Origin: Vandiemenella viatica | Taxonomy: Eukaryota > Arthropoda > Insecta > Orthoptera > Morabidae | Length of the DNA stretch: 64,000 bases | Assembly: GCA_031002005.1 (NCBI GenBank) | Contig: CM061918.1 | Location: forward strand, 39,188,947 to 39,252,946 | Reading direction: 5' to 3' | Program-made: the position numbers and the translations under genes | Notes under the pieces: model-generated | The model's database searches: none | Seen by the model: only the letters and a program-made list of their open reading frames with translations | Told to the model about the DNA's origin: nothing | Part shown: piece after piece, positions 1 through 62,705 of the stretch | Numbering within the stretch: the first letter of the stretch is position 1 | How the letters are laid out: every line of letters begins with the position of its first letter

Positions 1-1000
1 TTTACAGCGAAGGCTGGGGAACACTTTGAAAATAGAATTAACATGGTATTTTAAAATTTTGCAAATCCAGATTTCGCATGTGACGTATGATGACGTATCA
101 CAATACTTTAAACAAATGTGCTTTTAAATTAACCCACTTTCAAATTCATTTTCACCGGTCTGGAAGCTCTAAAAACAAAACCAATCACATCACTACACTT
201 GTCTCATTACGCTCTTTATCCTGTGATTTTCTGGTAGTTTGTAGTTATCAGATTCTTTTTCCAGATAGACTATTGTCTAGGTCAGTAGCCATTTTGATAA
301 AAGTTAGCTATGACAGGATCGGACACCAGTTTAACGGAACGGCTTGAGGAGTCCACACGCATCTTGTGTGTTCTTAAGTTTGAGAAAGCCCGGCCGCGGT
401 GGCTTATGGGTAGGCAGGACTTCGGGAAGCATGGCTGACCGACGCCATTTTAAAGCAGGCGGGGCAATATCAAAATTCTAAAACTTTCCGACATGTGTTC
501 AGCTTAACATTCAATTTCATTCGGGGTGTTGCGGTCTGTTCTGTTTCATGACTTGTGATCTTCGGCAAATGATTTTCTCCGATTGCCATTGCTAACTGTG
601 ACTTTTGTAACTTCTGTGAAAATTTTTAAGAATATATACTTCAGTTATCCGGATTCAGACTTTCATTTCTACTTTAGTACCTTTCTTACAGGAGGTTAAT
701 CTGTAAGTGGCGGGCGCATTAATTATTACAGTTAGCATTCTACAAGGTTTTACACGGTTATAGAACCTTTTCCGAACTTTGACAACTTTTTTGATGACTT
801 CAAGTTTAGGTGGACTTACCCCAGTATCCGACATATCCCCTAACAGCACATTTTGGAGAAGGAATGTAGGAAATAATATCTCTCTCAAGCTTCCACACAC
901 CATTCGCACAACTCCTGTTGTTCTACATCTCCAAAAGCAGACGACATCCCCATATTTGTAGTAACACATTTCTCTCCTTATGCCGAACCCATTAACAGAT
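1..1000. other. No gene recognised
   Basis: Presumed intron of the host gene. I see no splice-bounded exon and no recognisable transposon domain. The short open frames present have no family motif. Confidence 0.4.
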
Positions 1001-14286: not shown

Positions 14287-15165
14287 CTAGCTGTTGCCCA
14301 CGACTTCATTCATGTGTGTAAAGAATTTGGATTGCCAGCTACTGACATGTAACCACCATAGTGCACGATAGGAGACTCGAGTTTAATACCAGACACAAAC
14401 ATCAGTGATCTGTGGTGGGTATTTATGGCTGCCAAATGAAATATAGGGACACACATGTCTTTGGTCAAAATATGAACAAGTCGCAGGTCGACCACTTTCA
14501 ACCGCCATATCTCCCACACGCCCATAACTGCCGACATCTAACCACCATAGTGCACGATAGTAGACACGATACCACTACCACACACAAACACCAAAGGTCT
14601 ATGCTGTGTAGTTGTGGCAGCAAAGTGACACATACGGAGACACATGTCTCTGGTCGAAATACGAAAATATCCTTGATCGGCCACTTTCAACCACCATATC
14701 TTCCACACTTGCACAGTTAGCGAAATTCGGCCAACGTTGTGATCGATGGGTGACTCTGTGCTACTACCAGACACAAACACCAGTGATCTGCGCTAGATAG
14801 TTTTTGCTGGATAGTGATACACCATGGCACATACATCTTTGGCAGAAATATGAAAGTGCCGCAGGTTGACCACTTTCAACTACCATATCTCCCACACCTC
14901 CATAGCTACTGACATCTAACCATAGTGCACAACGGGAGATTCGATACTATTACCACACACAAACATCAATGGTCTATCCTATGTAGTTGTGGCAGGAAAG
15001 AGAAGTATAAGGATACACAAAATATGAAAATGCCCTGCATCGACCACTTTTAACTATCACATCTCTCACATCCCCACAGCTATCAGCATTCAGCCAACGT
15101 TGTGCACGACAGGAAACTCCATGCTACTTCCACACACAAACACCAGTTATCTGTGCTTCGTAGTG
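14287..15165. repeat. Degenerate tandem array, unit about 176-191 bp
   Basis: Five units start near 14336, 14527, 14716, 14902 and 15078. Each carries an ACACAAACA block, a CCACTTTCAAC-CCATATCTCCCACAC block and a GTGCACGA-like block. Units 1, 2 and 4 share GACATCTAACC; units 3 and 5 share TTCGGCCAACGTTGTG or close to it. The array begins next to CTAGCTGTTGCCCACGACTTC, a motif found at one end of many insect retroposons, and is cut off by a PLE end at about 15175. Confidence 0.8.
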
Positions 15166-15174
15166 GTGGCTGAA

Positions 15175-16255
15175 AAATGTAATATAGGGAAATATGACCC
15201 AACACTTACCACAGATGAAGGCGGCTGGGACAATGAACAAAAAACAAACACAAGAGAAGCGCAATATTTCGGCCTACAGCAGCCTTAAACGTGCAGAAGG
15301 TGAAGCACCAGGCAGCGTCACATGTGTACACATAGACGGTCGACTGGTGAATGGCGTCTCAAGTGCGGATGGTAGATTAGGTGGAAAAGGGGGGGGGGGA
15401 GTAAGCTCAAATATTGGATCGATACTGATGACGATATGTTATTATTGAAAGAGGTGAATAATAACTGGGTGGGGAGATATATATATATATAACTATAAGT
15501 GAAAAGTAAAATAAATGTAAATAGCATGGATAATAGTAAATACAGATATACAAAAAATGTAAATGGTATAGATAATAAGTGCTGGGTCTGGTGGGCAGAG
15601 TTTATTGGAGATTGAGGCCAGGAGGATGTCTGGTGTCAAGGATATTCTGGTAGGCTAGTTCCCATCTATGAAGTTCAGAGGGGGTCGTGTTGTTTGGGAA
15701 AACTCTGATTGCCCTAACGGAAAAACAGATGTTCAAATTATTGATTTTGTGGGAACTGGCATGTTTTGCAACTGGATGGGCCTCATTGTTAGTATAAACT
15801 GTCTGCCTGTGGCCATTCATTCTGATAGCTAGGGGATTGGTTGTGAGGCCTATATATGAACTGGAGCAATGGAGTTATGTCAGTTGGTATATGAGGTGTG
15901 TTGTCATGCAAGTAGCATGACCAATGATAGGGAATGTTTCACCTGTGGTAGGATTGGAGTAAGTGATAGTTGCTGGGTGTATGCTGCATGTTTTACAATG
16001 GGGTCTATTGCACGGGAATGAACCCTGTGGCAGTCTGGGCTAATCTACCATCCGCGCCTGAGACACCATTCATCAGTCGACTGTCTGTGTGTACACATGT
16101 GACGCCGCCTGGTACTTCACCTTCTGCACGTTTAAGGCTGCTGTAGGCCGAAATATTGCGCTTCTCTTGTGTTTGTTTTTTGTTCGTTGTCCCAGCCGCC
16201 TTCATCTGTGGTAAGTGTTGGGTCATATTTCCCTATCCTTCCTTAGTTTTATTGT
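15175..16255 (-). mobile_element. 5'-truncated PLE with inverted terminal repeats
   Basis: The minus strand carries a GIY-YIG domain piece (16030-15602) that reads RMNGHRQTVYTNNE and RWELAYQNILDTRHPPG and ends in TAA at about 15602. One stop interrupts IYQLT. Downstream lies a terminal repeat (15480-15175). The 5' side is truncated at about 16035 and joined to a second terminal repeat in the opposite orientation (16040-16255). This structure, a truncated body with inverted ends, is typical of PLEs. Both ends carry the AGGCTGCTGTAGGCCGAAAT block. Confidence 0.85.
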
Positions 16256-18660: not shown

Positions 18661-18979
18661 TTGGAATTTTTTCATGTTTTTTTTTCTTTCTGGAATCCTC
18701 ATGCTTTCATTAATATTACTGTAAATTTTCATAAAAATTGACTAAAAAATAAATGAAATATAAATTATTTTCAGTCAAAGTTCAGAATCGTCAAAATTTC
18801 GAAAATAGCAAACATTCAAAATTTCGATTGGCTGTATAATGAAAACTAAACCAAAATGAGAACCATAACTTGAGGTGGATACTTTTGTATATAAGAGGAC
18901 TAAACTTGCCAAGTTTCATAAAAATCCGTGTCGGAGGGTGTCAAAATGTCATTTTTTTGGCTGAATTCACGTGGAATGA

Positions 18980-19582
18980 TCCTGTATTATTTGTTTCCTA
19001 TTATTGAACACAACAAAAATTCTGCAAATTTTAATTGTTTTACTGTGACGGATGTATATTTTTTTCAGGTATGTGAGGCCTAACCTCGTGAACGTGGAAA
19101 GTCGCTCCCAAATTCCCGCCACTGAACCGCCTCGACCACAGTATGTGAACTGTTTGTAAAACTGAACATTCCCTTTCTTTGTGTCAGAATATCTTATTAT
19201 TAAAAGTCATCTACAAATATAAGACAACTGTCTTGAATAATATTGAACATTTTGGGTTAGGACTTAAGGTTATCCACTTATTGCCTTTCAACTTATTTCA
19301 GGCTTTTATTACCTGAAAAAGTTTTGGACGGATTGACTTAATGATTTCAGAAGGTAATTTAAAAGAGTGGTCCCAACAATATTTCAGAGTTAGATATTTT
19401 CTTTCTGATAACCTTCATACAGTAGTTTGGGTCAAAAGGTTGAAAATTCTGCAACTTTTAATTTAATTAAAATAATCAGTGATCATTTTTGCAGAAGAAA
19501 AACTTAATAGTCAAGACTGGAATAAAATAATGTAAGGGACTAACTGCATACCGGGGTTGCTATGTCAGCTTATCACCTTAAC
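18980..19582 (+). repeat. Intragenic duplicated unit 2 (left part)
   Basis: Homologous to unit 1 and unit 3, with the same acceptor tract, the same donor, and the GTCCCAACAATATTTCAGAGT block at 19372. A remnant of the large exon (GCAGAAGAAAAACTT...GACTGGAATAAAATAATG) is at 19480-19545. A mariner-like element then cuts it; a stretch at 25080-25250 looks like its continuation. Confidence 0.65.
19069..19140 (+). CDS. Host gene, exon 2 of those visible
   Basis: A 72-bp exon between TTTTTTTCAG and GTATGTGAA, with the same split-codon phase at both ends as exon 1. It encodes YVRPNLVNVESRSQIPATEP and RPQ, clearly paralogous to the start of exon 1 but without the lysine-proline repeats. The spliced joint with exon 1 makes CCG (Pro), and with exon 4 makes CAG (Gln), so the frame stays open. 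Confidence 0.65.
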
Positions 19583-19584
19583 TA

Positions 19585-20552
19585 CAGGGTGGCGCAAAAA
19601 GAACGCATGGATTTGATTTGAGTAGTATAAGTGGTGGAAGTGGAATGTAGGGATGGTGATCTGTTGTTTTGTAGGTTAGATCAACCAGTTTCAGTAGCAG
19701 TGGCACAGTGGTCCATGTAGCATCGCATTACGCTGTTGAACATTTTTTTCGAAAGTAATGAATCTGTTATCACAGTTCAGCGTCTTTTCCGAACACAGTT
19801 CAATGTTCTGCGAAATGGTTTGGTTCCCTGATCGCAACACAATAATTCGTTGGGTTAACTCTGTTCAGAAAACTGGAAGTGTCAGGAAGCAGAAGTCATC
19901 CGCGTATGGCGCGAACCCCACAAAATTTCAACAGAGTAAGAGCGTCTGTTCTTCAAAGTCCTCGCTGCTCCACTAAGCAGTATGCTCCAACTCTGGGTTT
20001 GTCTCGTCTATCACTGCAGCGCATCCTGAAGGATGGGTTACAATTTCATCCTTACAAAATTATGATTGTGCAGAAGATTCATGAATGTGATCATGAGCAA
20101 TGGAGACTTTTGTGAGAGAATGCTTGATGTTCTTGCTAAAGATTGTGTTTTGTTTATGATGAGCGATGTAACTTACTTCCATTTAGACGGTTATGTAAAC
20201 AAAGAAAACTGTTGGCTATTGGACAGCAGACAACCCACAAGGACTGCATCAATCACCACTGCACAGTTCAAAAGTGATCGTTTGGTGTGGAGTTTCAAAA
20301 GTGGGAATCATTGGGCCTTATTTTTTTTGTTTTGAAGAGGGTGGTGTTAGTGTAACAGTGAATTCTGCAATGCTACGCAATTTTTTGTGGCCAAAACTTG
20401 ACACTTTAGGGATCAGCATGGCAGAGATGTGGTTTCAACAGGATGCAACCACCGCCCACACGACGAATGATTCCATGGCAGTTGTCCGAGAAATAAATAA
20501 AACTGTCTATAACCAGGAGGATACTTTAATGCATTTCATTTGAAAACACTTT
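19585..20552 (+). mobile_element. Mariner-like transposon, 3' end lost
   Basis: It starts at CAGGGTGGCGCAAAAAGAAC directly after a TA, as IS630/Tc1/mariner ends do. A broken transposase frame follows with VPDRNTIIRWVNSVQKTGSV (19830), SDVTYFHLDGYVNKENCW (20170), VWCGVSKVGIIGPYFF (20280) and EMWFQQDATTAHT (20430). The first two catalytic aspartates of a DD(E/D) transposase are thus visible. The third lay in the part that is missing: a LINE is inserted at 20553 and no transposase sequence resumes after it. At least three frame breaks. Confidence 0.75.
20543..20552 (+). repeat. Target-site duplication, left copy
   Basis: AAAACACTTT, repeated at 24554-24563 on the other side of the I-like LINE. 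Confidence 0.75.
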
Positions 20553-20583
20553 AGACCTTTACACCAGCCTGTGCTAAGAGGAT

Positions 20584-22190
20584 ATGACATACAGAAAGGA
20601 CGACACCGACGGTGATCGAGCGAAGGGAGGAGTGGCTGTGTTTGTCCGAAACACTGTCCACTCCGAACCCGTTGCTCTCACCTCTAACCTACAAGCAGTG
20701 GCAGTGAAGATATACGGTCCTATTAAACTGACCGTCTGCTCCATTTATCTACCACCAAATACGCCCGTCGAGTATGACGAACTTACCGACATACTGCGGC
20801 AGCTTACTCGGCCATTCCTCCAACTAGGAGACTTTAACGCACATAGTGCGTTGTGGGGCTCGAACACCGATTGCCCCAGAGGCCGAGTGGTTGGTAGATT
20901 AATGGAGCAAGAGGACGTTTGTATCCTGAATACAGGACAAATGACCCACTTCACCACTGCTTCCGGTTCGTCCTCTGCCATTGATCTTTCGTTGTGCTCT
21001 CCTTCAATTGCAGACTCCGTGCAGTGGGAAGTGGATCGCGACCTCCGTGGAAGCGACCACTTCCTTATATGGATGCACGTGGGCGTTGAGGGTAGAGGAG
21101 GAAACACCCGACGCAAATGGAACGTCAGTAAAGCAGATTGGCAGCTCTTCTGCCGTTCTGTTTTGCTACAATGCCGCGAGAATATACACGACAAGGTGAG
21201 TCACTTCACAGAAGTGATTCACCACGCTGCTGATGTTTCCATGCCAAAAAGCTCCGGAACGCTGCGAAGGACGCCCGTCCCCTGGTGGAACGACGAATGT
21301 CGTTCCACTATCCAGGGTCGAGACGGGCGTTGCAGTCGTTTCAGGTTGAACCCAACAGCCGACAACCTGGCAGCGTTCCGTATAGCTAGAGCTAAGGCGC
21401 GTCGGGTTATTAAGGAGAGCAAGAAAAGATCATGGCAGAACATTGTGAGTACCATAAATCGTTCCACACCTTCATCGAAAGTATGGGAGTCTATCCGCCG
21501 TATATCTGGAAGGTACTCCCGCCCACCAGTATCTGGATTACTGGACCACGGACGTGTGATAACCGACGAACGAAGCATAGCCCAGCTGATGGCAGAGAAT
21601 TTCGCTGTCATCACTTCGTCTGCCATCTTGGACCTTCAGGTCCAGCAGCGAAAGACTGCTGCCGAAAGGCACACGCTGTGCTTTGATTCGTCGGACACAG
21701 AGGCGTATAACAGCCCGTTCTCATCCTGGGAGCTGGAGTCTGCACTAAACAGTGCTAATGATACCGCTCCAGGACCTGATATGATCCAGTACCAGATGCT
21801 GAGGCATCTTAGTAATGATGCTAAAAAGTACCTTCTAGATATTTTTAATCATATTTGGACCGGAGGTCACTTCCCCGACTCGTGGAAAGAAGCAACATTA
21901 ATTCCCATTTTAAAATCTGGCAAAGACAAATTGTAGCCAGGTAGTTATCGTAGTATTGCCTTGACTAGCTGCGTGGGGAAGACACTGGAGAGGATGGTGA
22001 ATCGCCGCCTCGTCTGGTGTCTTGAATCCCGTAATCTTCTGAGCCGCTTTCAGTGTGGATTCAGGAAGTTCCGTTCCACCTTGGACAACCTGATCCTTCT
22101 GGAGGCGGCAATACAGGATGCGTTCATCCGCAGCCTACACCTTGTGGGTGTTTTTTTCGATATTGAAAAGGCCTACGATACTACCTGGTG
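20584..22190 (+). pseudogene. I-like LINE ORF2: endonuclease and first part of RT
   Basis: The endonuclease part shows GGVAVFVRNTVHSE, LGDFNAHSALWGS (GDFN), AIDLSLCSPSI and RGSDHFLIW (SDH), which are active-site motifs of APE-type nucleases. The RT part shows APGPDMIQYQML and, past a TAG at 21934 that replaces one codon in the same frame, SYRSIALTSCVGKTLERMV, FQCGFRKFRSTLDNL and FFDIEKAYDTTW with the first catalytic Asp. A TGA at 22189 replaces the next codon, probably CGA (Arg) by transition. Just before 20584 a one-base shift separates the start HQPVLRGYDI from the open frame. Confidence 0.85.
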
Positions 22191-24130
22191 ACATGTTATT
22201 TTAAAACAGTTACATGAATGGGGTTTTAGGGGTAACCTGCCCCGTTTTTTAAAATCATTTTTATCTGGTCGTTGCTTCCGGTACCGAGTCGGTAGTGAAG
22301 TGTCTGATCTTTTTATTCAGGAAAACGGTGTTCCTCAGGGGTCAGTTTTAAGCGTGACCCTATTTGCTATCGCAATCAACAGCATATCTATGGTTATAAG
22401 GAGTCCCATTCGGTTCTCCTTATATGTGGACGATTTTTTAATTTTTATTGCGTCGTCCAGCCTGCGAAGCGCAGAGCGGCAGTTCAGTTGCAGCTCACGT
22501 TGAACAGGCTGGACGAATGGTCAGTGCACACCGGTTTTCGTTTCTCTGCTGAGAAAACCCGGTGTGTACTTTTTACTCGTAGTAGAACTCTTTTACTGGA
22601 GCCCCACCTTACCCTGAGGAACACCGTTTTACTGATACTGTTCGTTTTCTGGGCCTCATTTTTGACACAAGGCTCAACTGGCTACCGCATCTCAAAGATG
22701 TGAAAGCCAGAGCCTCAAAAGCTTTAAATATTTTAAAATGTCTATGTGGCAGGTCGTGGGGCGCTGACCGCTCATGCCTGCTACAGTTTTACAGAGCCTT
22801 TGTACGGTCGCGTCTGGAGTACGGTTGCATCGTTTACGGATCGACACGGGACAGTTATCTTCGGATACTGGATAGTTTCCACCATGCTGGTATTCGGCTC
22901 GCTACGGGTGCTTATCGCACCAGCCCGATTGTCAGCATTTGTGCTGACTCTGGCGAGCCATCGCTTACCATCCGCCGGCATCTCCTCATGGTGCGACACT
23001 ACCTAAACATTGCCATTACACCAGGCAGTCCCGTGCACGGTCTAGTTATGTATCCAGACTTTGAACGACTATACTCTAATCGCCATAGAGCGACTAAACC
23101 GTTCAGCTACTGTACAAGGGCTATTTTAGAGGAATATGGTTTCGAACTGCCCTCTTTTTATCACCAGGGTTGGAGTAAATCTCCACCCTGGCTTTTAAAG
23201 AGGCCCAGAATTATTTTAGATATGTCTCGGTATAACAAACTGTTTACCGCTGACAGGGTTTTTATTAATATATTTAGAGATATTTTAAACCAGTATCTCA
23301 CGTTTACCCCGGTATATACGAATGGGTCTAAGCAGGCTAACGGAGTTGGTTGCTCCATCGTGTTCCCTCGAGCGACATATACATTCAAACTTGACGGTAA
23401 GTGCAGCGTTTACACCGCCGAGTGCTACGCCATGTTGAAGTCACTCCAGCACATGAAAGTAACGCGCAATAAGTGTTTCATTATATGCTGTGATTCCCTC
23501 AGCTGTATTCAGGCCATAGGAACTATGTACCCAGCAGAGCGTCTAATCCAAGACATCCAGGACACCCTCCTTTCCCTCCAATCTCATGGAAAGGAGGTTT
23601 TATTCTGCTGGGTACCCGGCCATGTGGGAATCAGGGGGAACGAGGCAGCTGATGAAGCTGCCAAGTTAGCCTGCGACAAGGTCAGAACCGACTTTGAACC
23701 GGTCCCAAAGTCAGACCTTGCCTCGGCGGCGAAGAGATTTGTTTTTGATGTTTGGCAGAGGCAGTGGCTGGAAGTTGAGCATAATAAGCTCCGGCAGGTC
23801 AAATCGACCGTTCAGCCGTGGAGCAGCTCCTTCCAGTGGGCAAGGAGGGATGAGGTTCTCCTTACTCGCCTCCGTATAGGGCATTGTCCTCTGACTCATA
23901 GCTTCTTCTCCACCGAGAGGACCCTCCGGAATGTGATACTTGTGGTGTACCTTTGATGGTACGCCACATTTTAACCGAATGTGTTCTGTTTTTAGATTTA
24001 AGGGCAGACGTTGGCCTAGCCAACGATCTGTCCCTTATTTTAAACGATGACGGTGACAACGTGGCTAAGGTTTTAAAGTTTTGCAGCTTGGCCGGTCTTG
24101 TCCCAAAAATTTTGGGCAGATCGGCCTAGG
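22190..24130 (+). pseudogene. I-like LINE ORF2: RT active site, RNase H, zinc knuckle
   Basis: NGVPQGSVLSVTLF and FSLYVDDFLIF (RT active-site Asp pair) are at 22325-22445. A frameshift near 22490 and another near 22640 precede a long open frame (22700-23956). That frame holds the thumb region and an RNase H domain with VYTNGSK, YTAECYAMLK, CCDSLSCI and GNEAADEAAK, the last four blocks covering the usual D-E-D-D positions. The first of these is Asn instead of Asp. After a further frameshift near 23915 the zinc knuckle ECDTCGVPLMVRHILTEC follows, and the frame ends at about 24127. Confidence 0.85.
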
Positions 24131-24139
24131 ATTTAGATT

Positions 24140-24464
24140 GGATTGGTGGCCTTTTACAACCACCAATCCGTGTACTTTTTCTTTATTTGTGTCCCTGTTA
24201 ATTTGGCTGGCCCTTTTACAGCCAGCCGGTTAGTTGGTTGTTTTAAATTGGTTGGCCCTTTTACAGCCAACCAGTCAATATATGTGTTTTTTTACATTTT
24301 GTGGCCTTTCTACAGCCATAGTTTTAGATTCAAATATTATTTTGCCGTCTGTGTGGCCGATCTCTTTACAGTCGGCCATGCAGACGGTACATGTGTCAGA
24401 ATTTTAATATTTTTACTGTGCTGTCTCTGTCGCCGACCTCTCTACAGTCGGCCACAGGGACGGC
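24140..24464 (+). other. Array of six hairpins in the LINE 3' UTR
   Basis: Six successive perfect or near-perfect stem-loops. (1) 24140-24169, 10-bp stem. (2) 24205-24227, 7-bp stem. (3) 24249-24273, 8-bp stem. (4) about 24300-24320, 5-6 bp. (5) 24345-24387, 7+7 bp with a small internal loop. (6) 24420-24464, about 11+5 bp. The stems differ in sequence, yet the loops are CCTTTTACAA, CCTTTTACA(G), CCTTTTACA(G), CTTTCTACA(G), TCTCTTTACAG and CCTCTCTACAG. Paired changes in the stems with a fixed loop indicate selected RNA (or DNA) structure. Confidence 0.85.
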
Positions 24465-24497
24465 AATTTCGCCACGTTGTCACGCCAGGTATTAGTT

Positions 24498-24553
24498 AGG
24501 GCGCTAATAACCTCGATGTTGACGTGCCCTAAATCCCGAACAACAACAACAAC
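24498..24553 (+). other. Terminal hairpin and CAA tail of the I-like LINE
   Basis: AGGGCGC (24498-24504) pairs with GTGCCCT (24524-24530), followed by AAATCCCGAA and (CAA)n. The same tail stands alone at 42540-42597. In LINEs such a 3' hairpin plus simple repeat is a plausible recognition site for the element's own RT. Confidence 0.75.
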
Positions 24554-24563
24554 AAAACACTTT

Positions 24564-35990: not shown

Positions 35991-36604
35991 CGAATATAAA
36001 ATGCTTAAATACCCAAAGTAAATAAAAAATAAAGTTTTAATACTTGTTGAGTTCATCACGTAGCTTGGCTAAAATAAAATAGTTGTGATGTTGAACTTCT
36101 TTCTTACCCCAAAGACGGACCTTAGAAGAGATACAATTCGTAAATTGGTCTACATTCGTTTCTCACAGGAACAACCACTAGCAAACCAGCAATGTGAGTG
36201 AAGAATAAAGCGGCGAAATCAAACAGTTTGAACGCTAAGCTTTGCCCCATTATTACCTCAACGCTTTGCGCCCCAGTATGAGTCACCGCAACAATCCAAT
36301 TGGTTTATTTGTTTTCGCTGCTTTGTTCTTCGCTCTTGTTGCTATGCTCTCCGCTCCAGTATGTTTTCTCCTTAACACATATCTAAAGCGACGCAGGCTT
36401 CGGTAAAACTAAAATTCTAACGGGCGTAGTCAGTTATTTTGGATTTTTGTTGGAATATTCCCATTTTTTTCCTATACTATTTAACTGATCCTCTTTATTA
36501 TCAATCGACCCCCTTTCGACCCCCGGGTATTAATCGACCCCCGGAGAACTCTTATCGACCCCCAGGGGTCGATACCGACCACTTTGGGGACCCCTGGTAT
36601 AGAC

Positions 36605-37537
36605 TGTCTGCCTGTGGCCATTCATTCTGATAGCTAGGGGATTGGTTGTGAGGCCTATATATGAGCTGGAGCAATGGAGGCATGTCAGTTGGTATATGAG
36701 GTGTGTTGTCATGCAAGTAGCATGACCAATGATAGGGAATGTTTCACCTGTTGTAGGATTGCAGTAAGTGGTAGTGGCTGGGTGCATGCTGCATGTTTTA
36801 CAACGGGGTCTATTGCATGGGAATGAACCCTGTGGCAGTCTGGGCGAATTACTTGGTGAGTACTTGTGGACCAAGATATTACTTAAATTCGGTGGTCTGC
36901 TGAAACATGTGCAAGGGGCAGTGGGTAGAATTTTATGGAGAATGGTGGGGAAGGAACGTAGGAAATCATGTCCACGGCGAAGGATTAGGTTAATGGACTC
37001 GAGACCAGGGAAGTACTGAGTGATGAAGGCGTTGCTGTGGTTAGTATCAAGGGGTACTGACTTGGAGTGGCTGTGTGAAGGAAGGGCTATGGCACGGGAG
37101 ATTTGTTTGTGTACTAAGTCAGGAGGGTAGCTACGGGAGATGAGAGCTCCAGACAGGTTTTCTGTGTATTGGGAAAGAGATTGTTCATCAGAGCAGATTC
37201 GCCTGCCACGGAGGGCCAGACTGTACGGAAGGGAACGTTTGATGTGCAAGGGATGACAACTGTTGAAATGAAGATATTGCTGCAGATTGGTCGGTTTGAT
37301 ATGAACAGAAGTATGTAGGCGCCTGTTATGCAAGGAAACGTCAACATCAAGAAAGGTAACATGAGTATGGGAGTACGTCCAAGTAAAGTTGATGGAGTGG
37401 TTGTTTAGAGAGTTGAGGAAGTCTATTAGATGATGCTCATCGAGGGTCCAGATCATAAAGATGTCGTCTATATATCTGAACCACACATAGGGTTTAATGG
37501 GAATATTGTTGAGGAATCGTTGTTCCAGACGGCCCAC
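36605..37537 (-). CDS. PLE RT-nuclease ORF, left arm, cut by the hAT
   Basis: A minus-strand frame open from 37537 down to the hAT insertion. It begins within the RT (GRLEQRFLNN), has the active site WFRYIDDIFMIWTLDEHH, the thumb region, PGLESINLILRRGHDFLRSF, the Cys-rich linker CNRPRCKTCSMH and the first half of the GIY-YIG nuclease (IYQLTCLHCSSSYIGLT). No internal stop. The rest of the nuclease lies beyond the hAT at 32910-32700. RT motifs before YIDD are missing, so it is truncated. PLE RTs make cDNA; the GIY-YIG nuclease nicks the target. Confidence 0.85.
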
Positions 37538-37544
37538 AAAAGCC

Positions 37545-37647
37545 GGATTTCAGCTTTTGTGGATCAGCACCTCCAGCCTGGATTTCAGCTTTTGTGGATC
37601 AGCACCTCCAGCCGGATTTCAGCTTTTGTGGATCAGCACCTCCAGCC
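37545..37647. repeat. Three tandem 34-35 bp repeats at the palindrome centre
   Basis: GGATTTCAGCTTTTGTGGAT and CAGCACCTCCAGCC repeat three times, starting at 37545, 37580 and 37614. They encode the RT stretch SAFVDQHLQP seen once in the PLE. They sit exactly where the left arm ends and the right copy begins. Confidence 0.9.
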
Positions 37648-39110
37648 TTTTGTACAGGACCTCCCTTCATTCATTAAAGACACCCCACACTTCCTTGAAC
37701 GACTTTCCACAGTCCCCACTCCTCTACCACCTGACTCCTTCCTTGTCTCCATAGATGTCTCTTCCCTTTACACCAACATCCCTCATGGACAGGGCCTCAG
37801 CTCCATGGAACACTTCCTGGAAATGCGACCTCCCGGCAGCCTCCCCAAGACATCCTTCCTCATTTCCTTGGCTAACCTCATCCTGTCTAACAACTACTTT
37901 TCCTTTAACTCGCAAATTTACCACCAGATACGTGGTACTGCAATGGGCACCCGCATGCCCATCCTATGCAAACCTTTTCTTGGGCCATCTGGAACAACGA
38001 TTCCTCAACAATCTTCCCATTAAACCCTTTGTGTGGTTCAGATATATAGACGACATCTTTATGATCTGGACCCACGATGAGCATCATCTAATAGACTTCC
38101 TCAACTCTCTAAACAACCACTCCATCAACTTTACTTGGACGTACTCCCATACTCATGTTACCTTTCTTGATGTTGACGTTTCCTTGCATAACGGGCGCCT
38201 ACATACTTCTGTTCATATCAAACCGACCAATCTGCAGCAATATCTTCATTTCAACAGTTGTCATCCCTTGCACATCAAACGTTCCCTTCCGTACAGTCTG
38301 GCCCTCCGTGGCAGGCGAATCTGCTCTCATGAACAATCTCTTTCCCAATACACAGAAAACCTGTCTGGAGCTCTCATCTCCCGTAGCTACCCTCCTGACT
38401 TAGTACACAAACAAATCTCCCGTGCCATAGCCCTTCCTTCACACAGCCACTCCAAGTCAGTACCCCTTGATACTAACCACAGCAACGCCTTCATCACTCA
38501 GTACTTCCCTGGTCTCGAGTCCATTAACCTAATCCTTCGCCGTGGACATGATTTCCTACGTTCCTTCCCCACCATTCTCCATAAAATTCTACCCACTGCC
38601 CCTTGCACATGTTTCAGCAGACCACCGAATTTAAGTAATATCTTGGTCCACAAGTACTAACCAAGTAATTCGCCCAGACTGCCACAGGGTTCATTCCCAT
38701 GCAATAGACCGCGTTGTAAAACATGCAGCATGCACCCAGCCACTACCACTTACTGCAATCCTACAACAGGTGAAACATTCCCTATCATTGGTCATGCTAC
38801 TTGCATGACAACACACCTCATATACCAACTGACATGCCTCCATTGCTCCAGCTCATATATAGGCCTCACAACCAATCCCCTAGCTATCAGAATGAATGGC
38901 CACAGGCAGACAGTCTATACTAACAATGAGGCCCATCCAGTTGCAAAACATGCCAGTTCCCACAAAATCAATAATTTGAACATCTGTTTTTCAGTTAGGG
39001 CAATCAGAGTTTTCCCTGACAACACGACCCCCTCTGAACTTTGTAGATGGGAACTAGCCTACCAGAATATCCTTGACACCAGACATCCTCCTGGCCTCAA
39101 TCTCCAATAA
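37648..39110 (+). pseudogene. PLE RT-nuclease ORF, right arm
   Basis: This copy reaches further 5' than the left arm: DLPSFIKDTPHFL, VSIDVSSLYTNIPHG (first catalytic Asp), QIRGTAMGTRM, then a one-base shift near 37950 into YANLFLGHLEQRFLNN and RYIDDIFMIW. A TAA at 38658, where the left arm has TCA, interrupts the linker. The frame resumes with CKTCSMHPATTTY, IYQLTCLHCSSSYIGLT, NGHRQTVYT and LDTRHPPGLNLQ, ending in TAA at 39108. Two lesions only, so it is recent. Confidence 0.9.
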
Positions 39111-41689: not shown

Positions 41690-42770
41690 TCGTGGTGAAC
41701 GGGACAACATAATGGCACAACGATGCCATTTGTACCCTGTTCTGCAGGGTAGAATACTCGGGCGCCTTGAAGCAGGCCAGACACAAACTGAAGTCTCAGT
41801 AGCCTTGAATGAGCCACAAAGTGTCATTTCCAGGCTTTGGAGACAATTCTGAGACATAGGAGATCTTTGTTGTAGGCCAGTACTAGGTCAACCAAGAGTA
41901 ACCACCACACATCAGGACCGATATCTGCCCTTAAGCCAAAATGCACCTGCATGACAATTGGCTGCAGATCTTGCAGTTTCCCAACAAACTGTGTACCAGA
42001 GGCTCAGAATGGCAGGCCATTTTACCAGACGTACAGCGGTGTGCGTCGTGCTCACTCCAGCACAGAGACGGGCACGTTTACTGTGGAGTCGGTAACATCA
42101 AAACCGGACCATGAATGAATGGAAAAATGTGCTCTTCACAGATGAATCCCGCTTCAGTTTACAGAATGATTCCTGTCGCACATTAATCTGGAGAGAACAT
42201 GGTAGCCGATACGACCACAGGAACATCGTGGAAAGGGACCAATATGGTGGTGTTGGTATCATGTTGTTGGGAGGCATCATGTTGAATGGTCGTATAGACC
42301 TGCAGATCTTCCTTGGTGGTCCGAGGAACACTGTTACTGCTCAGTGATACAACGATGAGGTACTGCGACCACAAGTTCGACTCTTCAGAGGTGCAGTTGG
42401 TCCAGACTTCTTCTTTATGGACGATAATGCACGTCCACGTCGCACTGCTCTCGTGAATCAATTTATTGAAGAAGAAGATATTCATCGCATGGACTGGCCA
42501 GCGAGGTCTGTGGATATGAATCCTATTGAACATGCCTGGGGGCGCTAATGACCCCGACGTCGACGCGCCCTTAAACACCAATAACAACAACAACAACAGA
42601 ACATGCCTGGGATGCATTAGGGAGACAAATTTCATCACAGCAGCCTCCACCAAGGACCCTCCAAGACCTGCGCATTGCTCTTTTGGAGGAATGGGATCGA
42701 TTGCCAAGAGAACTCTTAGACCATCTGGCAGAGAGCATGCCACATCATTGCGAAGCATGTGTGGCTTTTA
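41690..42770 (+). pseudogene. Tc1-like transposase (broken)
   Basis: The N-terminal helix-turn-helix region reads RILGRLEAGQTQTEVSVALN and PQSVISRLWRQF, followed by a stop. After further breaks come TMNEWKNVLFTDESRFSLQN (first catalytic Asp), GGVGIMLLGGIMLNGR, FFFMDDNARPRRTALV (second Asp; the usual HR is RR) and SVDMNPIEHAWG (Glu). The LINE-tail insertion falls just after the Glu. All three catalytic residues are visible, at the spacing of DD34E enzymes, but the reading frame has at least three lesions. Confidence 0.85.
42527..42610 (+). mobile_element. 58-bp LINE 3' tail with 13-bp target duplication
   Basis: GAACATGCCTGGG occurs at 42527-42539 and again at 42598-42610. Between them is GGCGCTAATGACC, a GACGCGCCC complement and (AAC)n, i.e. 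only the terminal hairpin and tail of the I-like LINE family at 20553-24553. It is an extreme 5' truncation that landed in the Tc1 transposase. Confidence 0.85.
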
Positions 42771-60201: not shown

Positions 60202-61044
60202 TTGCTACAGGAAAGTGTATATTGTGGGTATGGACTATTGGCCCATGGCCATTCTTTTGAGTTGAGATCTTTTCTTGTTGTGTTCATAATAGGATCATTT
60301 TACCGACCTCCGGACTCAGGATTAGATAATGCGGAATATTTTAGACAGTTTCTTAATAGTATTTCTCAGAAATTTCAGGGACATATATTGATCATGGGAG
60401 GTGATTTTAACATACCCTCTGTTAACTGGGACACATTTACGTTCAGGTCAGGCAGAAGAGATAGGTTAATAACCGAAACGTTCCTGGAATCATTCGCCGA
60501 AAATTCTCTTGAACAGATGGTTGAAGAGCCAGCTCGGAGTGTCAAAGATTCCTCGTCCATTTTGGATCTTTTTCTTACTAACAATCCGGATTTTGTAGAT
60601 AAGGTTTGTATGGAAGACGTTATAAGTGATCACAAGGCGATTGTGGTAACTTTAAAATCTAGGCTGAATTTGAAGCATGATAAAGACAAACTCATATATT
60701 GTTTCGATAAGGCAAATGATGTGTTTATGGTCGATCATTTGGTGAAAAATTTTGAAACGTACACGCTTAATACAAATGTTGAGGAACTTTGGTTTAATTT
60801 AAAAGAAATAATATGGACCGGCTTAAATCAATTTGTTCCCAAGAAGTTTATTAAGGTTAGTAAGAACTTCCCATGGTTCACTAGGGAAGTGAAACGTTTG
60901 CTCAGGAGGCACAGGCGTTTACATGCCACGGTAAAGAAATCGGGGGACTCATCTGATCGCACTAAATTAGTCCACTTGCAAGCGGACGTTCGTAAGGCAA
61001 TGCGTTTAAAGAATTCCAAGCCAGAAATTTATCCGAAGATCTGA
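60202..61044 (+). pseudogene. CR1-like LINE endonuclease domain
   Basis: IGSFYRPPDSGLDNAEYF, ILIMGGDFNIPSVNW (GDFN) and VISDHKAIVV (SDH) are the APE-type nuclease blocks, which cut the target DNA. The nuclease start is missing. The linker to the RT continues (SKNFPWFTREVKRLLRRHRR) until a frameshift near 61030. Confidence 0.85.
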
Positions 61045-62705
61045 TTACTAATCCAAAAAAGTTTTGGTCATATGTCAAATTAATAAGAGGCTCTCGTAAG
61101 GTCATGCTGTCGTTGATTAATGAAAATGGGGAATTATCAGAAACTAGCATCGAGAAAGCAGAAATTTTGAATAATGTATTTAAAAAAGCTTTCACGTCAG
61201 AAAACTCGGAGGAGATTCCGATATTTAACAATCGAACCAACAAAATTATGAATGATCTCGTTCTCGATGTCGAGGCAATAACTAAACTGCTTATGAATGT
61301 AAATCCCAATAAGGCTCCCGGACCAGATGGTATTCCTACAAGATTCTACTTTAGGTACGCAAAGGAAATTGTGCCGTATTTGATGAGATTATATACCGCC
61401 TCCTTGGATCAAGGAAAAATACCAGCCGAATGGAAGACCACCATTGTAAGTCCAGTGTTCAAAAGTGGAAATCTTAATGATCCTCAAAATTATAGGCCGA
61501 TCTTGTTAACCTCAATATTTTGCAGGATTTTAGAACACATCATCTATTCAAATGTCATGTGGTTTTTGGATGAAGATGAGCTTTTATACCCAAATCAACA
61601 TGGATTCAGAAAAGGCCGATGCTGCGAAACACAACTTGACCTCTTAATTCACGACTTGAGCTGTATTATAGATGAGCAATCCCAGGTTGATTTAGTTTTA
61701 TTAGACTTCAAAATAGCTTTCGACACTCACACTAGGTTACTTAGGAAACTTCGCGGTTACGGTATATCTAGACAAATATGCGATTGGGTTGCAGACTTTT
61801 TGAAGGACAGAACACAGTGTGTAGTTCTCGACGGTGAGCGTTCATCACTTGACGAGGTGAGGTCCGGGGTTCCCCAGGGTAGCGTGTTAGGGCCTCTGTT
61901 ATTTCTCATATACATTAATGATTTGTGTGACCTAATAAGGGGAATGAAAAGATTATTTGCCGATGATGCTATTATTTATCGTGAAATCACAACCCAGGAC
62001 GACTGCGCTTTGTTACAAGTCGATATTATGAAAATAATTGCGTGGTGTAAAGATTGGCAGTTGGAGTTAAACGCTAAAAAGTGCCAAGTCATGCGTGTAA
62101 GTAAAAAGGTAACACCATTTACCTTTGAATATACAATTAATGGCACTGTCCTTAGAACGGTAGATTCCGCTAAATACCTAGAGGTAACAATTCGTAATAA
62201 TTTGTCATGGAATGAGCATGACGAGAATGTAATTGGGAAAGCAAATTGTGTGCTTCGATTTCTAGGTCGTAATTTAAAACAATGCACTCCGGAAGTTAAA
62301 TCGATTGCGTACAAGTCACTAGTGAGGCCTCACTTGGAATATTGTAGCTCTGTATGGGGTCCCCATCAAAAGGGATTAATGGAGGCATTAGAGAGGGTCC
62401 AAAGAAGAGCCGCCCGATGCGTGACAGGTATATATAGTTGGAGGGAAAGCATAAGTGCCATGTTGAAGGAGTTATGTTGGGAAGACCTGGAGCACCGAAG
62501 GCGTTGCTCTCGACGGAAACTAATTGAAAAATTCTCGACTGACTATTTCGGAATGACAGCAAGCAAATATTGCTACCAGCAACATTCATATCTCGGAATG
62601 ACCACAAAAATAAGATAAGAGAAATCAGGGCCAGAACCGATTCATTTCTCTACTCATTTTTTCCTCGAGCGATTAGGGACTGGAATAGAAAGGATTTACC
62701 GGGCG
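61045..62705 (+). pseudogene. CR1-like LINE reverse transcriptase
   Basis: NKAPGPDGIPTRFYF, NYRPILLTSIFCRILEHI, GFRKGRCCETQLDLL, VLLDFKIAFDTHTRL (first Asp; two residues seem lost before HTRL), SGVPQGSVLGPLLFLIYIND and LFADDAIIYREI (active-site Asp pair) appear in order. The C-terminal part reads YKSLVRPHLEYCSSVWGPHQ and VQRRAARCVTG. A frameshift near 62550 precedes the last segment, which ends AIRDWNRKDLPGE then TAA. It would copy the element's RNA at the nicked target. Confidence 0.9.

Follow-up and report, generated by a model that had tools for sequence, protein, structure and literature searches.

The 3′ UTR of a LINE in the window (the whole 64-kb stretch of DNA analysed here) is occupied by six hairpins at 24140-24465 (Table 1), and this array is almost certainly a selected RNA structure. 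Pairing is kept across copies and families of the element, above all on the sense strand and with changes on both sides of a pair, which agrees with the selection on structure that the initial annotation had proposed. The way in which a LINE protein selects its own RNA in the cell has long been an open question; in this element the unit presumed to be recognised occurs many times, with altered stems and a conserved loop, and ORF1-led parasites have inherited it.

Six hairpins occupy the 3′ UTR

The six hairpins were found where the initial annotation had placed them, in a segment (24100-24500) that folds at −147.9 kcal/mol compared with a shuffled mean of −99.0 (z −9.24); with flanks included (23990-24560), the z score is −11.13. 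The sense strand folds better than the opposite strand (z −9.2 versus −7.7). Stems of at least 7 contiguous pairs with loops of 4-13 number 19, a count in which some stems are entered at more than one loop size, compared with at most 14 in 500 shuffles. The shared loop, given in the initial annotation as (C)YYTTTACA(G), reads C-N-N-U-H-U-A-C-A in H2-H6 and is closed by a C-G or U-G pair; it is 9 nt long with the following G paired, and the loop of H1 has 10 nt and ends in ACAA. The stems, taken there to be unrelated, include duplicates: H2 and H3 are 88% alike over 33 nt, H5 and H6 are 78% alike over 51 nt, and H2-H4 have GGC/GCC beside the loop in common. Nor do the stems grow from about 6 to 16 bp toward the 3′ end, their lengths from H1 to H6 being 10, 9, 10, 7, 19 and 18. 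Within H6, 24431/24453 is C.C in the window and in many young copies.

Table 1. Features of the LINE copy and of its 3′ UTR, in window coordinates
Feature	Position	Strand	Evidence
5′-truncated LINE copy (endonuclease to 3′ tail)	20553-24553	+	Target site duplication, ORF fragments, Pfam domains
ORF2 fragment, endonuclease and start of reverse transcriptase (RT)	20584-21936	+	Pfam Exo_endo_phos_2, E 6e-19
ORF2 fragment with RNase H domain	22700-23956	+	Pfam RNase_H, E 2e-9
ORF2 C-terminus, different frame (start approximate)	23935-24129	+	Translation; Cys-His motif CDTCGVPLMVRHILTEC
Enclosing helix, 5′ arm, within ORF2 codons	24053-24065	+	13 bp, perfect, with 24471-24483
Hairpin H1, 10 bp, 10-nt loop CCUUUUACAA	24140-24169	+	Fold and model match
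Hairpin H2, 9 bp, loop CCUUUUACA	24203-24229	+	Fold and model match
Hairpin H3, 10 bp, loop CCUUUUACA, duplicate of H2	24247-24275	+	Fold and model match
Hairpin H4, 7 bp, loop CUUUCUACA	24299-24321	+	Fold and model match
Hairpin H5, 19 bp, loop CUCUUUACA	24343-24389	+	Fold and model match
Hairpin H6, 18 pairs and one C.C mismatch, loop CUCUCUACA, duplicate of H5	24419-24465	+	Fold and model match
Enclosing helix, 3′ arm, just after H6	24471-24483	+	Pairs with 24053-24065
Terminal hairpin (GGGCGCTAATAACC...GTGCCC)	24496-24532	+	At the 3′ end of family A, B and C copies
3′ tail, (CAA)n-type	24540-24553	+	Sequence

A covariance model of the hairpin (R1), trained on H2-H6 and on nine hairpins of family C (below), had six matches when the 64-kb window was searched at E up to 0.5, and every one lies within the array. 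H2-H6 match R1 by construction, being training rows, so the new information lies in the match to H1 and in the absence of others. Rfam gave no match in the window at gathering scores, nor, with E up to 0.5, in five loci that carry the element.

Likeness to the histone stem-loop, which has a loop of 4, was ruled out by the loop size of 9. Loop-to-loop kissing was rejected by eye, the loop not being self-complementary. Complements of the loop were searched for as well, and none was found in the L041 and L049 stretches, TGTAAAA occurring once in the L044 stretch. Exact patterns of the terminal hairpin and of an H5-like hairpin had no match in viral contigs, and the exact pattern of the terminal hairpin had none in bacterial and archaeal contigs, as is expected for an animal LINE.

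The LINE copy that carries the array

The LINE copy lies between 10-bp direct repeats, a target site duplication (AAAACACTTT; 20543-20552 and 24554-24563). In the ORF2 fragment at 20584-21936, whose top-scoring relative has 42% identity, residues 320-448 match LINE-1 ORF2p, from which the RT is inferred. The reading frame is broken near the end of ORF2, and the ORF2 stop codon, TAG at 24127-24129, is in the frame of the C-terminal stretch. Judged by gene plan and domains rather than by an RT tree, the element is an I-group LINE. ORF2 has an APE-type endonuclease and RNase H (Pfam, both above cut-off), and ORF1, missing from the 5′-truncated window copy, has by eye three Cys-His motifs in L041 (CFKCQRFGHTTATC and two more) and at least one in L032, L044 and L049. 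Pfam gave no domain for the L041 ORF1 stretch. Among the ORF2 relatives listed, the named animal proteins are mostly spider 'X-element', 'jockey' and 'BS' annotations. No match was found for the ORF2 protein in viral contigs or for the 3′ UTR in phage records.

The LINE was inserted beside or inside transposase-like fragments (QQDATTAHTTNDSM) that lie upstream of it, at about 18900-20543, and that resemble mariner/Tc1. Three further features of the window were recorded. At 36597-38920, two 945-nt arms, 99% complementary and 434 nt apart, carry YIDDIF-type reverse transcriptase frames and look like an inverted duplication of a Penelope-like element. A tandem repeat with a unit of 177-189 nt lies at 14336-15196; it has about five copies, which are 65-81% similar to the reference copy. 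A second LINE-like frame pair is present at 60202-62618, its latter frame with a reverse transcriptase domain, and R1 found no hairpin in that region.

Copies and families in the genome

The genome searched for copies comprises 3.72 Gb. An array unique to this one copy would have counted against the proposal of the initial annotation; instead, it recurs in three families (A, B and C), and two more lineages are represented by one copy each. For family A, each of the 40 candidates scored, out of 5352, was a match (86-100% identity), with the window itself in first place. The older family B was discovered through a 68% relative within L037; scoring 40 of 1831 candidates gave 44 matches at 69-100%, the first at the query's own place, and nine copies were fetched. 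R1 found six of six hairpins in the B copy L055, and fewer in the other B copies, where some hairpins are lost or damaged. At the apparent 5′ end of element copies, GC-rich, strongly folded stretches were seen in L009 (about 860-920, minus strand) and L037 (about 1467-1530); they had no match in Rfam, and our guess is that they could form a 5′ ribozyme-like structure.

Family C, discovered through L018, has the plan of a HAL1-like ORF1-only element, ORF1 being followed by the 3′ end without ORF2. The end of ORF1 leads directly into the array in all four copies fetched, and a scripted count found it abutting the first block in 34 of the 40 matches to the array. Further upstream, the stretch read in one C copy holds an ORF1 with Cys-His motifs that has 73-78% DNA identity to ORF1 elsewhere. 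ORF1 seems to have been kept in this lineage without ORF2. In the C copy L061, nine hairpins form two blocks, and a terminal-type hairpin follows each block; three of the nine (c3, c4 and c8) have short stems or altered loops. In several ORF1-led copies of family C, the ORF1 frame is open over 497 aa. One example of a family C locus is C4537:16814143-16814292, with the array adjoining at 16814291; contigs C4537, C7, C8 and C7729 are each 388,957,591 to 388,957,675 bases long and look like chromosomes cut at a size limit.

Two more groups, represented by one copy each (L065 and L066) in stretches that end before the 3′ ends of the elements, show the order ORF1 stop, array, terminal-like hairpin, ORF2-end remnant, second array. 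This layout suggests that ORF2 was lost from a full element whose 3′ end was doubled; alternatively, it may be a rare rearrangement. A second array is present in the ORF1-led copies that were read. The initial annotation had raised duplication of one hairpin as the origin of the array, rightly so for at least two hairpin pairs, and duplication and selection are both involved in the array.

The enclosing helix and the terminal hairpin

A 13-bp helix links the end of ORF2 to the end of the UTR and encloses the array as one domain. Shuffling the 3′ side 5000 times gave a match of this length once, and shuffling the whole domain 1000 times gave none. The pair 24060/24476 is C-G in 32 of 49 rows, U-A in 6, U-G in 3 and unpaired in 8, and the codon-side change from C-G to U-A is silent in the frame of the ORF2 C-terminus. 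The helix is recognisable in several family B copies. The terminal hairpin lies outside it. Stringent LINEs end in a 3′ hairpin followed by a tail of short tandem repeats, an arrangement common to their non-autonomous partners, and here both the terminal hairpin and the CAA tail occur in family A and in the ORF1-led family C.

Insertions of about 35-60 bases, consisting of the terminal hairpin and an A/CAA-rich tail only, were observed inside other elements: at about 42537-42597 of the window, in L030 and L048 at the same place, and in L036. They start at or beside the base of the hairpin and have apparent target site duplications (GAACATGCCTGGG in the window). The element site is identical for L030/L048 and L036, which probably reflects a single event copied on. 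Given such hairpin-only insertions, reverse transcription may be able to begin without the array, although the insertions could also stem from full RNAs by extreme 5′ truncation. The question bears on one rival explanation of the array, in which it is the part of the template that ORF2p recognises at target-primed reverse transcription, an enlarged form of the 3′ UTR structure of stringent LINEs. The array does lie beside the terminal hairpin and tail, it has been retained by relatives that depend on borrowed ORF2p, and 3′ stem-loops with compensatory changes are known from LINE and SINE tails (PMC3747384, in part). We consider this explanation improbable nonetheless, because the hairpin-only insertions, unless they are extreme 5′ truncations, suggest that the terminal hairpin may suffice, and because a single recognition event needs no six to nine equal loops.

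Covariation and the fate of shared changes

Covariation exceeds both shuffled and slid controls when judged by score, in the alignment of A and B copies and in sets of 14 and 39 hairpins. The check on other genomic copies for which the initial annotation had called thus gave scores above all 500 shuffles, and compensatory changes are present. The alignment A1 has 50 rows of A and B copies, excluding L027 (close to L025) and a partial copy in L032, which was added in a 52-row version. In A1, 92.3% of cells are paired. The covariation score is 0.125 compared with 0.116 in shuffles (0/500 as high), and 38 cells are altered on both sides compared with 18.1 (0/500). Two of five measures are not beyond the shuffles: pairs with a double change (15 versus 11.7, reached in 65/500) and pair types (214/500 shuffles as high). 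In slid versions of A1, the number of doubly changed pairs is higher (20-30). Pairing is frequently absent at the stem positions 24204/24228 (18/49 rows), 24203/24229 (13/49) and 24427/24457 (13/50); the last of these also switches, being G-C in 9 rows (mostly B), C-G in 26 rows, and C.C or C.U in some older A copies.

We then contrasted changes shared by at least three copies with private changes, keeping apart those found in exactly two copies. Private changes serve as a neutral sample because most copies are presumably dead on arrival. Across H1-H6 and the enclosing helix, 38 of 50 shared transitions keep pairing on the sense strand (binomial p 3e-4), whereas private transitions do so at chance level (23/44, p 0.88), a difference with a one-sided Fisher p of 0.014. 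Double changes in the same stems show the pattern as well (5/5 shared versus 7/25 private), and for transitions in H1-H6 alone the figures are 31/42 and 19/36 (p 0.045). Transitions in exactly two copies show no excess (17 paired, 16 not), and slid partners give no comparable excess of shared over private. With all kinds of change counted in 52 rows, the contrast is stronger (36/63 shared versus 25/127 private), but it is inflated by recurrent transitions, and the conclusion is therefore drawn from transitions only. A G.U pair on one strand is A.C on the other, which places the selection on the sense RNA. Stems show a shortage of shared transversions (18 shared, 73 private) relative to spacers (54 shared, 60 private; odds ratio 0.27, p 4e-5), and shared transitions are as common in stems as in spacers. 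In 52 rows, hairpins within ORF2 codons show a similar excess (10/16 shared versus 10/50 private), so that the shared/private test is not specific to the UTR, coding and structure being inseparable there; the terminal hairpin shows none (4/10 versus 9/29).

Hairpins were also compared with one another by anchoring them on the loop. For 21 hairpins (six of the window, six of the B copy L055, which was picked for being well preserved and so favours pairing, and nine of the C copy L061), stem positions 1-9 pair with their own arm in 88% of cases and with swapped arms in 61%, and 0 of 20000 permutations reached the own-arm value. Stem position 5 of this set is C-G in 7 hairpins, G-C in 5, U-A in 4, A-U, G-U and U-G in 1 each, and unpaired in 2. 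The covariation score is 0.509 for 14 loop-aligned hairpins (0.222 shuffled, 0/500) and 0.475 for 39 distinct rows (0.204 shuffled, 0/500), the latter set, alignment A3, holding only hairpins that reached E 0.01 with R1 and were fitted to its structure, one of them a minus-strand match, a choice that favours pairing. Slid partners in the loop-aligned sets score 0.06-0.15.

These data can be set against an explanation without function, in which tandem duplication built the hairpins and template switching in DNA synthesis keeps their arms complementary. Duplication is evident in H2/H3, H5/H6 and the second arrays, and template switching has been described as both creating and maintaining hairpins (PMC8794818, in part). 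However, correction of one arm by the other predicts Watson-Crick pairs on both strands alike, whereas the shared changes favour G.U on the sense strand, and both the shortage of shared transversions in stems and the constancy of a 9-nt loop across families despite stem change are left unexplained. We regard an array without function as distinctly improbable.

Conservation of the loop

In the 19 nine-base loops of the 21-hairpin set, base 1 is C and base 9 is A without exception, bases 4 and 6 are U in 18 each, and bases 7 and 8 are A and C, respectively, in 17 each. In A and B copies, 19 of 25 shared loop variants, counted from the per-position table, fall within the first five bases; for A/B loops overall, the deficit of shared changes relative to spacers is not significant (25 shared and 38 private versus 94 and 92, p 0.15). 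Loop length and the second half of the loop are thus kept while the stem is free to change, which fits a protein that reads the loop with the stem as support, and the loops are probably protein-binding sites.

The initial annotation had also suggested a splicing decoy. On this reading each loop would be a pyrimidine tract plus CAG and would present a 3′ splice site within a hairpin, or else a site for PTB or U2AF. The loops of H2-H6 with their closing G do read Y-rich-UACAG. H1, however, reads ACAA and has no AG, 24159 being A in 50/50 rows; the invariant first C and the fixed loop length are left unexplained, and splicing needs neither of them nor the A before CAG; and the loops of family C speak against it as well, loops such as CACUAUACA and CCCCAUACA weakening the pyrimidine tract. 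We give this suggestion hardly any credence.

A putative site for the element's own protein

In the mechanism that we propose, the 3′ UTR would be a three-part RNA module made up of the hairpin array, the helix (in families A and B) and the terminal hairpin with its CAA tail. By folding the end of ORF2 back on the UTR end, the helix would make the array a single domain, and the terminal hairpin and CAA tail would be the presumed start of reverse transcription. Each loop would be one site for one protein, with the stem as a handle, and repetition would lead to avidity. The array could then mark the element RNA for its own particle, in the manner of a gag-like nucleocapsid on a packaging signal, and might help the ORF1-led relatives, in which ORF2 is mostly or wholly gone, to keep access to the machinery.

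By analogy with such systems, we tentatively read the array as a putative multivalent site for the element's own protein. That protein would more likely be ORF1p with three zinc knuckles than ORF2p, because family C still encodes ORF1p, because ORF1p has gag-like zinc knuckles as in the I factor plan, and because, going by the hairpin-only insertions, the array may be dispensable for the start of reverse transcription. The fullest form of this proposal is possible but doubtful: a multivalent packaging signal in which six to nine or more one-loop hairpins assemble a chain of zinc-knuckle ORF1p on its own RNA, in a domain closed by ORF2-end pairing, and ORF1-led parasites compete by multiplying hairpins. 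The array names nine bases of interest and provides natural contrasts in stems, loops and hairpin number.

The main rival to reading by the element's own protein is a host protein, for which the array would be a site of localisation, stability or export that brings element RNA into the germ line; we judge this unlikely. The RNA of the Drosophila I factor is moved through a stem-loop bound by Egl-BicD (dynein) (PMC13186709, in part), UUUAC is present in many loops and a UUUAY SELEX motif is quoted for Drosophila Imp (IGF2BP) (PMC4477473, in part), and the multiplicity of hairpins suits 3′ UTR binding proteins. Localisation of I factor RNA is reported to require the ORF1 protein, by the title of a paper cited in PMC2881922. 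Egl-BicD, however, touches only the part of the loop adjacent to the helix, deletion of bulges impairs binding, and the I factor signal lies in coding sequence rather than in a UTR array (PMC13186709, in part). Unlike that signal, the array has near-perfect stems and a kept loop, and a bulged stem was not found among the predicted stems, which are perfect or have one mismatch. UUUAY is also missing from several loops (CUCUCUACA, CACUAUACA and CCCCAUACA), whereas C1, U4, U6, A7, C8 and A9 are near-invariant.

Comparison with known systems

Structured LINE 3′ ends, ORF1-only derivatives and a LINE localisation stem-loop are already known; what is new here is the repeated, loop-constant hairpin array. 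The initial annotation knew of no described array of this kind, and among the papers listed in searches of open-licence PubMed Central text, none describes one in LINE UTRs in its title or displayed abstract.

The packaging signals of retroviruses and RNA phages comprise multiple stem-loops read by a zinc-knuckle or coat protein. The array would function in a similar way; the likeness is one of putative mechanism only, without homology.

In the stringent LINEs (R2, UnaL2, SART1, and plant L1 with its SINEs), as here, the 3′ end is structured, shows compensatory changes, is the presumed target of a protein that the element encodes, and is common to non-autonomous relatives (PMC3747384, in part). 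The stringent LINE described in the same source has a single stem-loop, whereas here one hairpin type occurs six to nine times with its loop kept. Also unlike stringent LINEs, the array lies upstream of a separate terminal hairpin, and families A and B add a long-range helix to the end of ORF2.

The Drosophila I factor has the same plan as the element described here, with three Cys-His motifs in ORF1 and with APE, RT, RNase H and a C-terminal Cys-His motif in ORF2 (PMC2881922, in part), and likewise an RNA stem-loop with a role in the life cycle of the element, as we propose for the array. The I factor ILS is one bulged stem-loop in coding sequence (PMC13186709, in part), unlike the UTR array, and the I factor 3′ end consists of TAA repeats (PMC3747384, in part), where the window LINE has CAA. 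The mammalian HAL1 (half-L1) resembles family C in being ORF1-only and dependent on an autonomous partner (PMC5322556, in part). It derives, however, from a different LINE and has a poly(A) end, whereas family C keeps and enlarges the hairpin array.
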